IMG/VR virus record: IMGVR_UViG_3300009550_000069
Location: 1 to 22,147 of that record
Direction: 5' to 3' (one strand)
DNA: 22,147 nt
Source of the DNA: a virus
Position 1 is the first letter of the stretch; each line of letters begins with the position of its first letter. Shown one piece after another: positions 7,458 to 20,983 of this stretch. Made by a program: the position numbers and the translations under genes. Under the pieces are notes generated by a model that was not told the origin of the DNA, did no database searches, and saw only the letters and a program-made list of their open reading frames with translations.

Positions 7458-7487
7458 ATTATACCAAAATGTGTACCCATCATGCAA
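7458..7487 (-). promoter_or_regulatory. GGTACA-class promoter of the CobS-like gene
   Basis: On the minus strand: TTGCAT, 4 nt, GGTACA (7472-7477), 8 nt, TATAAT (7458-7463). The -35 to -10 spacer is 18 nt. This is the same geometry as three other sites in the window. It overlaps the 3' end of the CobT-like gene and gives a leader of about 35 nt with a GAGG ribosome-binding site. Confidence 0.72.
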
Positions 7488-9824: not shown

Positions 9825-9899
9825 TGGCGGTCTGTAAGGGAATCGAACCCTTCTCTCCGCCGTGACAGGGCAGTGTTCTCACCGATGAACTAACAGACC
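9825..9899 (-). tRNA. trnD: tRNA-Asp (anticodon GTC)
   Basis: The minus strand folds into a complete cloverleaf. It has a 7-bp acceptor stem (GGTCTGT / ACAGACC), a D-arm stem GTTC/GAAC, an anticodon stem CTGCC/GGCGG with one G-T pair, loop CTGTCAC giving anticodon GTC, and a T-arm AAGGG-TTCGATT-CCCTT. The discriminator base is G, as expected for Asp, and the 3' CCA is encoded. It is preceded by a GGTACA-class promoter ending about 9 nt upstream. It probably supplements translation of GAC/GAU codons, which should be common in this acidic-protein-rich genome; that role is inference. Confidence 0.95.
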
Positions 9900-9908
9900 G
9901 AATTATGT

Positions 9909-9938
9909 ATTATATAGGAATGTGTACCTATGAGTCAA
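9909..9938 (-). promoter_or_regulatory. GGTACA-class promoter of tRNA-Asp
   Basis: On the minus strand: TTGACT (9933-9938), 4 nt, GGTACA (9923-9928), 8 nt, TATAAT (9909-9914), with an 18-nt spacer. The predicted start is within a few bases of the tRNA 5' end. The site overlaps the last codons of the 263-aa oxygenase gene. Confidence 0.74.
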
Positions 9939-18759: not shown

Positions 18760-18843
18760 CTAAAATATCATTGCAAACAATAATACCAAAGGTATTTCCC
18801 ATGGTATGAAGATTAAACCTAATATTATTGTCCTATAATTCAT
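18760..18843 (-). CDS. micro-ORF, hydrophobic membrane peptide (27 aa)
   Basis: The frame encodes a peptide dominated by Ile, Leu, Phe and Met, with a central PWEIP turn (starts MNYRTIILGLIF). It would span or lie in the membrane. Its ATG overlaps the stop of the gp19-family gene as TAATG, a typical coupling arrangement, and it fills the gap before the uvsY promoter. No homologue is recognised. The 28-aa micro-ORF at 5706-5792 is similar in size and hydrophobicity but not in sequence. Confidence 0.52.
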   Translation of the reverse strand: MNYRTIILGLIFIPWEIPLVLLFAMIF

Positions 18844-19424
18844 TATGATGAGGCTGCAATTTCAAAAGTTGTGAACTGGAATGATGCAGTGCATGTTACA
18901 TATGTAATACCACCTGCTACAGTCGTATCCATTGTAATCTCACCTAATGATGTAGGAAATGCATCTTGTATTCTAATATATCTATTAGGATTATTTGCAG
19001 CTGTAGTAACTACAATAGTCATATCTGAAAATACTGCATCTGGGTCTCCAGAACCATCGTATGGTTCACCTGCTTTTCTATTTGCACCTACCAGACTTCT
19101 ATACTTATCTGGGTCTGTAGAACTAGTAATCTGAGACATCCATGTATACATCTCTGTCCAGTTTTCCATATTCTCATCTACAATAAAGTTTACAGTTACC
19201 TCACCATAGTTAATCTTATCGCCAGGAAATTTTACATTTGCACCATATCTAGTAGGTTGTTGAATTTCTGCTACTGTGATAGATGGTATGTTTACACCTG
19301 TTGCAAAGTACTTTGTATTAGGAAGTTTCTTTACTATTAATTCAAACTGAGTTGGTGCAAGATAAGATAAATTATCTGGAAGATTACCAGCCCATGTTGC
19401 AGTTGATATTTGTCTTGTTGTCAT
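18843..19424 (-). CDS. gp19-family tail tube-like structural protein (193 aa)
   Basis: This is a virion protein of the T4 gp19 tube-fold family. Supporting patterns are APTQFELIVKKLPNTKYF near the start, the conserved block VNIPSITVAEIQQPT, GDKINYGEVTVNFIVDE, WTEMYTWM, and the C-terminal AFPTSLGEITMDTT..VTCTASFQF, all seen in tube and tube-like proteins of marine T4-like phages. T4 gp19 has 163 residues. Its place just after gene 23 is where such phages often carry gene 3 (tail terminator). It could therefore be a tube-like tail completion protein instead of the main tube subunit. A perfect late promoter precedes its start with almost no leader. Confidence 0.75.
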   Translation of the reverse strand: MTTRQISTATWAGNLPDNLSYLAPTQFELIVKKLPNTKYFATGVNIPSITVAEIQQPTRYGANVKFPGDKINYGEVTVNFIVDENMENWTEMYTWMSQITSSTDPDKYRSLVGANRKAGEPYDGSGDPDAVFSDMTIVVTTAANNPNRYIRIQDAFPTSLGEITMDTTVAGGITYVTCTASFQFTTFEIAASS

Positions 19425-19429
19425 ACTAG

Positions 19430-19437
19430 TATTTATA
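19430..19437 (-). promoter_or_regulatory. T4-type late promoter (TATAAATA)
   Basis: The minus strand reads TATAAATA, the exact octamer recognised by gp55-programmed RNA polymerase. It is followed by 5 nt and then the ATG of the gp19-family gene. Initiation about 6 nt downstream would coincide with the start codon. A gp55 homologue is encoded in the same window. Confidence 0.68.
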
Positions 19438-19441
19438 ACAC

Positions 19442-19471
19442 TTGCACCATAGGTACATAATTTAGTATAAT
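19442..19471 (+). promoter_or_regulatory. GGTACA-class promoter pointing right into the gp23 intergenic region
   Basis: On the plus strand: TTGCAC (19442-19447), 4 nt, GGTACA (19452-19457), 8 nt, TATAAT (19466-19471), with an 18-nt spacer. It is the only member of this class on the plus strand. No plus-strand coding region follows; an intrinsic terminator does, about 130 nt later. Confidence 0.7.
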
Positions 19472-19477
19472 AGGTTT

Positions 19478-19611
19478 TTAATTAGTGAGGTAAAGGAGAA
19501 TGACATAGGGTAAAGTAACGGCGGATTAGTCTCTAGATGTCGAAAGAGACACGACCCCACCTTGGGTAGATATAGAAGGTTCGCAACCTTCCCCAGAGGT
19601 GGGTTTTTTTT
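19478..19611 (+). ncRNA. candidate structured small RNA (about 130 nt)
   Basis: The 5' end is predicted about 7 nt after TATAAT. The RNA contains a 6-bp hairpin GTCTCT/AGAGAC (19529-19534 with 19545-19550). Its 3' domain pairs CCCACCT (19556-19562) with AGGTGGG (19597-19603), extends by TGGG/CCCA, and stacks on an inner hairpin GAAGGTT-CGC-AACCTTC (19575-19591). It ends in eight T (19604-19611). No significant open frame exists; an AAAGGAG followed by ATG-ACA-TAG near 19490-19508 is too short to be a gene. It does not match an RNA family I recognise. Confidence 0.6.
19556..19611 (+). terminator. plus-strand intrinsic terminator of the small-RNA candidate
   Basis: A GC-rich branched stem (CCCACCT...AGGTGGG with an inner 7-bp hairpin) is followed by an uninterrupted run of eight T on the plus strand. 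On the minus strand no T run follows the stem, so it is directional. Confidence 0.72.
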
Positions 19612-19616
19612 GGCAT

Positions 19617-19645
19617 AAAAAAAGGGACTCCGAAGAGTCCCTTTT
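19617..19645. terminator. bidirectional terminator after gene 23
   Basis: The stem AAAAGGGACTC / GAGTCCCTTTT is 11 bp with tetraloop CGAA (TTCG on the minus strand, a very stable loop). Seven T follow on the minus strand and four T on the plus strand. It ends gp23 transcription and could also stop plus-strand transcripts. Confidence 0.85.
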
Positions 19646-19647
19646 AG

Positions 19648-19664
19648 AAAAGTCTACGACTTTT
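19648..19664 (-). terminator. second hairpin between the gp23 stop codon and the main terminator
   Basis: AAAAGTC and GACTTTT form a 7-bp stem with a 3-nt loop, placed directly after the gp23 stop. It is AT-rich and followed by only C-T on the minus strand, so it is probably an mRNA 3'-end stabiliser or accessory terminator. Confidence 0.45.
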
Positions 19665-19672
19665 AAAAAATC

Positions 19673-20983
19673 TTATAGAATGTTCTCTACTTCGATTTTT
19701 CTGTAGTAGAAGTTAGTTCCAGCAGATGCTAAACCATCACTTGGTGAACTACCTACGAAAGGATTAGAAATCATTCCATATCTAGTTTTGAAACCAATTT
19801 TTGGTTGGAAACTGTTTTCACCAACTGCACGAACCATTTGTAATGGAACATATGGGCAGTAGAAAACACCAGCATCAAATGCGTTTGAACCTCTATAACC
19901 AATAGTCATGTAACCTTCGTTGTTGTGTCCACTTACTGGGTCTAAAGTGTAGTATGGGTCAATATAGACTTTGTACTTACCATTTAGAGTACCAACGAAT
20001 GTGTTACCAGCATCGTCAACATTTAACTCAGTGTTAAGTGCTGGAGCGTAATCTAATACACCAGCCATTGACAATGCAGAAGCTACATCAGATGAGCAAA
20101 GGATAAAGTTACCTTTTCCTCTTCTTGACTCTCTAGCAATAGTGTTTGCATCTCTTTCAACTTGGAAGAGTAAACCTTTGAACTTCTCAACTGACCATCT
20201 ACCAGATGAATCAACATCTAAGTCGAATCTACCAGCATTAGCAACACCAGTTTGAGCACCAGCTTTTGCTTGAAGGTTAACAGTTCTTACAACTTCTCTG
20301 TTGATTTCCGCAAGGATTTCAGCAGATAGAATGTTTGCAAGTTCTGTTTCAGCATCAAGACCATGAATTGCTTTAAGGTCTTGTGCAAGTTCAATTGTGT
20401 ATTCTGCTTTAAGAGCTCTTGACTTAGCAGTTACAGTTGCTTTCTCAATTGTGAAAGCCATTGATGCAAATGGGTTACTCGCAGAGTCACCTTTTGCTTC
20501 AGCTGCAGCTGTTGTCATACCAGTACCAGTTGCATAAGCAGCTGCATCCCCAAATGGGTCTGTACCTGCTTGTGTTCCAGCACCAGCGAAATCTGTATCA
20601 GCTTCATCGAACAATGCTTCGGTCATTGCTAACCTTGAAGTATTGTCGTTATATCTGGCTTTCATACAGAAAACTAATCCTGTTGGGCCAGTCATTGGTT
20701 GCACACCACAGATGTCGTATGCAATTAGGTTTGGAAGAGACCTACGAACTAAAGAAATTAGAATTGGATTCCAATTATCGATACCTGTTCCACCGACTGC
20801 ACCACCAGCGTTGTTGATAGGTGCGTCCTCTGAAATGTATCCTCTTTCTTCGTTTAGGGCTCTTTCTTGGTTCTCAAGAACCACAGAAGTTACAGCTTTT
20901 TTGTATGGGTCAGTGATTTCTGGTAAATCTGGATGACTCAATACTGGCTGCCACTTCTCTTGTAAAGTTTCTGACATAAACAT
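19673..20983 (-). CDS. 23: major capsid protein (T4 gp23 homologue, 436 aa)
   Basis: This is the precursor of the capsid hexamer protein with the HK97-type fold. Landmarks shared with T4-like gp23 are LQEKWQPVL near the start, NAGGAVGGTGIDNWNPILISLVRR (shown in part) near residues 58-80, AYDICGVQPMTGPTGL, and the C-terminal YGMISNPF. A prohead-protease gp21 site of the type (I/L)-x-E is likely at ISE in GYISEDAP (about residue 53), removing the N-terminal peptide. T4 gp23 has 521 residues; this smaller size is usual for marine relatives. The true start may be ATG 20975-20977 (MSETLQEKW), two codons downstream of ATG 20981-20983, although AAGGGG upstream is better spaced for the first ATG. Confidence 0.96.
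   Translation of the reverse strand: MFMSETLQEKWQPVLSHPDLPEITDPYKKAVTSVVLENQERALNEERGYISEDAPINNAGGAVGGTGIDNWNPILISLVRRSLPNLIAYDICGVQPMTGPTGLVFCMKARYNDNTSRLAMTEALFDEADTDFAGAGTQAGTDPFGDAAAYATGTGMTTAAAEAKGDSASNPFASMAFTIEKATVTAKSRALKAEYTIELAQDLKAIHGLDAETELANILSAEILAEINREVVRTVNLQAKAGAQTGVANAGRFDLDVDSSGRWSVEKFKGLLFQVERDANTIARESRRGKGNFILCSSDVASALSMAGVLDYAPALNTELNVDDAGNTFVGTLNGKYKVYIDPYYTLDPVSGHNNEGYMTIGYRGSNAFDAGVFYCPYVPLQMVRAVGENSFQPKIGFKTRYGMISNPFVGSSPSDGLASAGTNFYYRKIEVENIL

Follow-up and report, generated by a model that had tools for sequence, protein, structure and literature searches.

The gap between the tail tube and gp23 genes of an uncultured marine T4-like phage very probably encodes a member of a family of structured, plus-strand small RNAs, as judged from the comparison of related sequences. 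The two most conserved parts of this RNA, neither of which figured in the preliminary description of the locus, are a start-stop mini-ORF and a pseudoknot that follows it closely. Engagement of a ribosome is the best reading of the conserved mini-ORF and one that we consider reasonably probable on this comparative footing. The window, i.e., the whole stretch of viral DNA that was analysed, comprises positions 1-22,147 of IMG/VR record IMGVR_UViG_3300009550_000069. Across uncultured marine T4-like phage contigs in IMG/VR, the RNA was found in 18 distinct leader versions and at three genomic sites, which suggests that it acts by itself.

Position and boundaries of the RNA

The gap (19425-19672) is flanked by two minus-strand genes (Table 1), and the ORF listing contains no gene of at least 60 aa within it. 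It had been proposed to hold a plus-strand unit of about 130 nt running from promoter to terminator; all the named features are present, and the proposal is borne out by the recurrence of the promoter class and by covariation. The promoter includes GGTACA at 19452-19457, with a spacer of 18 nt between TTGCAC and TATAAT, and the likely start of transcription, placed from the promoter, lies near 19478. With its own promoter and terminator on one strand, the unit has the make-up of an intrinsically terminated small RNA gene, and its transcription is predicted. In L002, L031 and L278, a second hairpin replaces the eight-T tail. As also proposed, the RNA converges on gp23 and stops about 5 nt short of the end of the gp23 terminator, which belongs to the other strand; the predicted 3′ ends of the small RNA and the gp23 mRNA do not overlap. 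We take TATAAATA to be the T4-type late promoter of the tail tube gene.

Table 1 Features of the RNA locus and of the riboswitches found in related gaps
Feature	Position	Strand	Basis or detail
Tail tube gene	18843-19424	minus	PHROG tail tube match
TATAAATA	19430-19437	minus	direct reading; upstream of tail tube gene, divergent from RNA promoter
Promoter	19442-19471	plus	direct reading; TTGCAC 19442-19447, TAGGTACA 19450-19457, TATAAT 19466-19471
Small RNA (about 134 nt)	19478-19611	plus	start inferred from promoter, end from T-run
Ribosome-binding region	19485-19498	plus	GTGAGG 19485-19490, AAGGAG 19493-19498
Mini-ORF AUG-ACA-UAG	19500-19508	plus	preceded by Shine-Dalgarno sequence
P1 pseudoknot helix CGGC/GUCG	19519-19522/19539-19542	plus	compensatory versions in relatives
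P2 hairpin GUCUCU/AGAGAC	19529-19550	plus	nine sequence versions of helix
6-bp hairpin GTCTCT/AGAGAC (DNA of P2)	19529-19534/19545-19550	plus	direct sequence reading
GC-rich 3′ domain (P3, next row)	19556-19603	plus	direct sequence reading
P3 domain	19556-19603	plus	outer helix 19556-19562/19597-19603, inner helix 19563-19566/19592-19595, bulge 19567-19574, hairpin 19575-19591
Eight T, intrinsic terminator tail	19604-19611	plus	direct sequence reading
gp23 terminator	19617-19641	minus	direct reading and fold; hairpin 19641-19624, T-run 19623-19617
gp23 gene	19673-20983	minus	Pfam Gp23 match
Glutamine riboswitch RF01739	L005 2640-2769 (+); L029 1086-1207 (+); L279 6085-6212 (-)	late strand	Rfam

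The window sequence by itself is insufficient as proof, because its single-sequence fold is ordinary (only slightly better than shuffles, z -1.2) and because a generic sigma-70 scan of the window did not list the RNA promoter. Proof comes from comparison: the promoter class recurs within the window and in the genome of a related phage, and the helices covary across relatives.

A promoter class shared with a tRNA and small genes

The motif TTGCAYNATAGGTACATA is found three times in the window against 0.2 expected by chance. The extra copies lie on the minus strand at 7470 and 9921, with 2-3 mismatches, and the one at 9921 is directly upstream of tRNA-Asp (9825-9899). The genome of the relative G001 (146 kb) carries a longer form of the motif ten times at up to three mismatches, nine of them on one strand, while a reversed-motif control gave 0 matches there; these copies are mostly upstream of short genes, several of which have GTGAGG as ribosome-binding site. 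The placement of copies before tRNA-Asp and small genes indicates that the RNA promoter belongs to a phage class that serves an RNA gene and small genes. This class is probably of an early type, given the kinds of gene downstream and the absence of a T4 late motif from it.

Two stretches behind promoters of this class were noted in passing. In L412 (1479-1790, minus strand; G001, about 125480-125790), some 300 nt without a long ORF separate the promoter from tRNA-Asp, whereas the window tRNA-Asp is directly behind its promoter. In L413 (84-420, plus strand; G001, about 136284-136620), the promoter is followed by a long gene-free stretch with a tRNA T-arm-like piece, ACAGGTTCGAATCCTGT; this stretch gave no tRNA, tmRNA or Rfam match and is possibly another RNA gene.

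Family members and genomic sites

Homologous gaps were gathered via contigs encoding the tail tube protein (n = 40). By the search pattern used, and with near-identical contigs counted, the RNA is present in 14 of the 40 and the remaining 26 are without it; the gap behaves as a cassette site, with other gaps holding small ORFs or a glutamine riboswitch. A covariance model, R1, matched 14 loci, 11 of which were in its training set; the match to the window RNA spans 19485-19611, with 13 related loci besides. The G001 locus scores 72 bits from outside the training set and lies at a second site, flanked by a different pair of genes, where L087 and L185 also carry the RNA. Scanning with ATGAAACATNAGAACCCT, the conserved loop of the second terminator hairpin, brought in the divergent members L295, L303, L305 and L311, and a pattern built from these found a further member in G003; the gp23 proteins of G005, which holds L303, and of G003 are 75% and 69% identical to that of the window. 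A pattern of Shine-Dalgarno, ACGGC and GTCG applied to viral contigs returned mostly chance matches and was useful once filtered. Neither R1 nor the patterns gave a convincing match in eight isolate or single-cell phage records, one strict pattern covering only part of the family gave 0 matches in bacterial genome contigs, and a DNA similarity search with the gap and a divergent RNA in 50,697 phage records returned only terminator-hairpin or chance matches.

L010 has, upstream of 3001 on the minus strand, a near-empty gap of 96 nt between the gp23 and tail genes, in which a truncated promoter, TTGCACTATAGGTA, is joined directly to the gp23 terminator. Such a fusion indicates that the RNA cassette has been gained and lost. 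A protein of 85-93 aa (VYVVQKTKKTLG...YRVPLSMLE), whose gene often immediately precedes the RNA within one operon, was seen in L013, L029, L278, L289 and many marine phage contigs; it has no confident Pfam or PHROG match (alignment A5). It was rejected as an obligate partner, since most of its relatives that were examined have no RNA downstream.

The pseudoknot and the 3′ domain

The 6-bp hairpin of the preliminary description is present, but its loop can also pair with CGGC at 19519-19522. The strand just behind the mini-ORF would thereby pair with the loop of the P2 hairpin to form P1, and the two interleaved helices, each with compensatory versions, amount to an H-type pseudoknot. P1 occurs as ACGGC/GUCGA, ACGGC/GUCGU, ACAGC/GCUGU, ACAGG/CCUGU, ACAGG/CCUGA and ACAGG/UCUGU, and the versions of P2 include GUCUCU/AGAGAC, GUCCCC/GGGGAC, GACU/AGUC, CCCC/GGGG and GGACC/GGUCC. 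The G-U pairs of P1 (CGGC/GUCG and ACAGG/UCUGU) are compatible with the plus strand; an RNA from the minus strand would have A-C mismatches in their place. Two points weaken P1: it has only 4-5 pairs, and a classical H-type knot would have a longer last loop than the 2 nt of the window.

The 3′ domain, previously described as GC-rich and branched, is indeed GC-rich but consists of two stacked helices with a one-sided, 8-nt bulge. Its plan in the window lineage is an inner helix of three pairs, about eight mostly A/U bulge bases, a hairpin and then AG, while the outer helix occurs there in four versions of different sequence; L013/L002, L031 and L278 follow this plan with outer helices that differ. 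Pairing between the Shine-Dalgarno sequence and the P3 strand ACCU was considered and rejected, as by eye it is not kept in the L013/L002 types.

The preliminary description had named a lack of compensatory base changes in related sequences as one ground for refutation, and such changes were found in the P1, P2 and P3 helices. Standard pairs make up 93-100% within versions; in mixed helices, with each strand taken from a different version, they make up 53-76%. These percentages describe the data and carry no test of significance because the helices were registered by hand. Manual registration, checked against the sequences, was adopted because the MAFFT alignment across lineages misplaced P1 and P2. 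Preservation of the fold in related phages, despite widely differing sequence, argues for a real RNA family.

The start-stop mini-ORF

The earlier view that no coding frame explains the gap holds for genes of at least 60 aa, but it passed over AUG-ACA-UAG behind a Shine-Dalgarno sequence. In all 18 distinct leaders, an AUG is separated from a stop by one to four codons, and the distance from this stop to P1 is 8-10 nt, or 5 nt in two leaders (L003 and L031). The codons themselves vary among leaders and all three stop codons occur. A stricter position test was passed by 17 of the 18, the exception being L003, in which the AUG is further from GTGAGG. Of the shuffled versions of each leader, 0.8-7.7% pass this test; the product of these chances over nine groups, 4e-14, is indicative only, because the leaders are related, so that per-leader chances cannot be multiplied and the mini-ORF statistics overstate independence.

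The ribosome-binding region is retained in window-type members, and GTGAGGT is found upstream of many other genes in these phages. The routes to the mini-ORF differ among the leaders: besides the Shine-Dalgarno sequence, the AUG may overlap the stop codon of the upstream gene (TAATG in L303) or lie right behind the promoter (L295, L305 and L405), while the mini-ORF itself is kept throughout. Its retention despite changing access is the main argument for ribosome loading at this point. When a stop codon occupies the A site, the entry of mRNA into the ribosome lies near the position of the knot, and the spacing from stop to pseudoknot fits this geometry.

Comparison with known RNAs

The RNA had been said to match no known family, and with Rfam 15 no family reached the gathering threshold for the window RNA or the scanned relatives, the best sub-threshold matches falling mainly on the gp23 terminator. 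A one- or two-piece tmRNA was rejected, as ARAGORN and Rfam found no tRNA-like domain or tag ORF in the window. The two-piece tmRNA of Melnitz-like phages (PMC9004378) is likewise a phage RNA with a short reading frame, pseudoknots, a tie to the ribosome and an early promoter, from which the present RNA differs in having no tRNA-like domain. The stable RNAs rnaC and rnaD of T4 (species 1 and 2) are likewise small RNAs from a T4-like phage and, at 139 and 119 nt, are close in length to this one, but they lie in a tRNA cluster, contain tRNA-like sequence and are without the core of this RNA; the best model match in that region of T4 was 6.3 bits, and they were set aside.

The cyanophage RNA CfrI (S-PM2; cited in PMC12197685) resembles the window RNA, by description only, as a small RNA on the strand opposite a phage gene, at its 3′ end; it is described there as a psbA antisense RNA, whereas the window RNA is predicted to be free of overlap with the neighbouring mRNA. 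The glutamine riboswitch of marine phages (RF01739) is also a structured RNA in the gp23-tail gap of related phages, yet it is on the other strand, has a different fold, precedes a short ORF and is named by Rfam. In L005, L029 and L279, this short ORF comes next, just before the tail tube gene, and the L029 gap holds both the riboswitch cassette and the plus-strand RNA.

The lambda bar minigenes and axe-txe, with its two-codon minigene (PMC8708949), are also close to this RNA, and share with it a Shine-Dalgarno sequence, an AUG, about one codon and a stop; AUG-ACA-UAG behind AAGGAG is a very short ORF of just this type. In these systems, as here, the effect would be expected to come via the ribosome and not the peptide. 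Unlike them, the present mini-ORF is tied to a terminated small RNA that has a conserved pseudoknot; it has no downstream gene, and its second codon is not conserved. Very short ORFs acting through the ribosome (lambda bar, axe-txe) and phage small RNAs are thus already known; the open-access literature yielded no described family in which a free-standing RNA carries both a start-stop ORF and, at fixed spacing from it, a pseudoknot.

How the RNA may work

We infer from the comparisons above that the RNA is transcribed early in infection, that ribosomes occupy it and pause on it, and that host or phage is affected. Its 5′ end could serve as a ribosome-loading site, consisting of the phage Shine-Dalgarno sequence, an AUG and a near-immediate stop. 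A ribosome that initiated there would translate one to four more codons, arrive at the stop and meet the pseudoknot, which would leave the small RNA on or in front of ribosomes. A ribosome in this position could shield the RNA from nucleases, and the RNA, or the ribosome that it holds, would be brought into play early in infection. The 3′ domain would form a second structural unit that in the window also terminates transcription. To this mechanism as a whole, in which an RNA made from an early-type promoter takes a ribosome onto a minimal ORF and holds it against a pseudoknot during termination, we give an even chance on present sequence evidence. The candidate benefits to the phage are stability of the small RNA, capture of ribosomes, or a drain on tRNA or release factors, and we do not decide between them. 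More tentatively, and with greater doubt, the family could represent a new class of ribosome-capturing phage RNA, in which the pseudoknot holds the terminating ribosome, and the RNA would then either exert its action from there or, early in infection, take ribosomes away from host translation.

It is possible, if somewhat doubtful, that the RNA is a conventional trans-acting regulator that pairs with phage or host mRNAs, its mini-ORF and pseudoknot being merely a protection of the 5′ end from nucleases. The free-standing unit from promoter to terminator is what such a regulator would have, and for axe-txe it has been proposed that a ribosome bound at a minigene protects the RNA (PMC8708949). 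However, the conserved letters sit in structure (the loop GUCG and the bulge) and no long unpaired conserved seed was found in the RNA, and the spacing of mini-ORF and knot seems stricter than simple protection would need.

It is unlikely that the RNA is simply an inhibitory minigene, in which round after round of start-stop translation would deplete the host of peptidyl-tRNA, tRNA or release factors. The AUG, single codon and stop behind a good Shine-Dalgarno sequence recall the lambda bar minigenes, which are inhibitors of protein synthesis according to references listed in PMC8012679. Yet the second codon varies (ACA, GAC, GTA, GCA, AAU) although how toxic a minigene is reportedly depends on its last sense codon (PMC8708949), some of the ORFs have 3-5 codons, and the pseudoknot and P3 would go unexplained.

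A leader-type switch, in which translation of the mini-ORF would choose between pseudoknot and terminator and so control transcription beyond the unit, is very unlikely. The order of mini-ORF, knot and terminator is attenuator-like, but what lies downstream differs from site to site, and L002, L031 and L278 add a separate terminator. In the window, the convergent gp23 terminator follows, so read-through would yield only antisense RNA.

Local control of capsid or tail mRNA, which had been suggested from the position of the RNA, is not supported, and antisense action on either mRNA is highly improbable even though the RNA converges on gp23: the predicted 3′ ends are without overlap, most homologous gaps lack the RNA by the pattern used, and it also occurs at two other sites away from gp23. 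Least credible of all is chance, i.e., promoter-like and terminator-like sequences around a neutral spacer, which the ordinary single-sequence fold would allow but which is at odds with helices replaced yet complementary in several lineages, the mini-ORF in every distinct leader and the repeated promoter class.

Apart from tRNA, tmRNA and riboswitches, little is known of the RNA genes that marine T4-like phages carry. The present family, supported by covariation and absent from Rfam, has a defined anatomy of start codon, stop codon and pseudoknot at a kept spacing, and its covariance model can be used to seek family transcripts in ocean metatranscriptomes. If ribosomes are engaged, it would offer phages an RNA-only route to act on translation in marine bacteria.

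Other elements near the RNA

Hairpins whose 17-nt loop, ATGAAACATNAGAACCC, is conserved while their stems are freely exchanged are often found at gene ends, both in L002, L031, L036, L087, L185, L278, L295 and L303 and, without the RNA core, in L284, L287, L289, L293, L297 and L302; the conserved loop is perhaps a binding site or a processing signal. Downstream of the gene for the 85-93 aa protein in L357 and L390, a repeated hairpin-like element, GTGTCTAAGGGNG...AAGACAC, follows the promoter-like TTGACTTT and is perhaps another small RNA.
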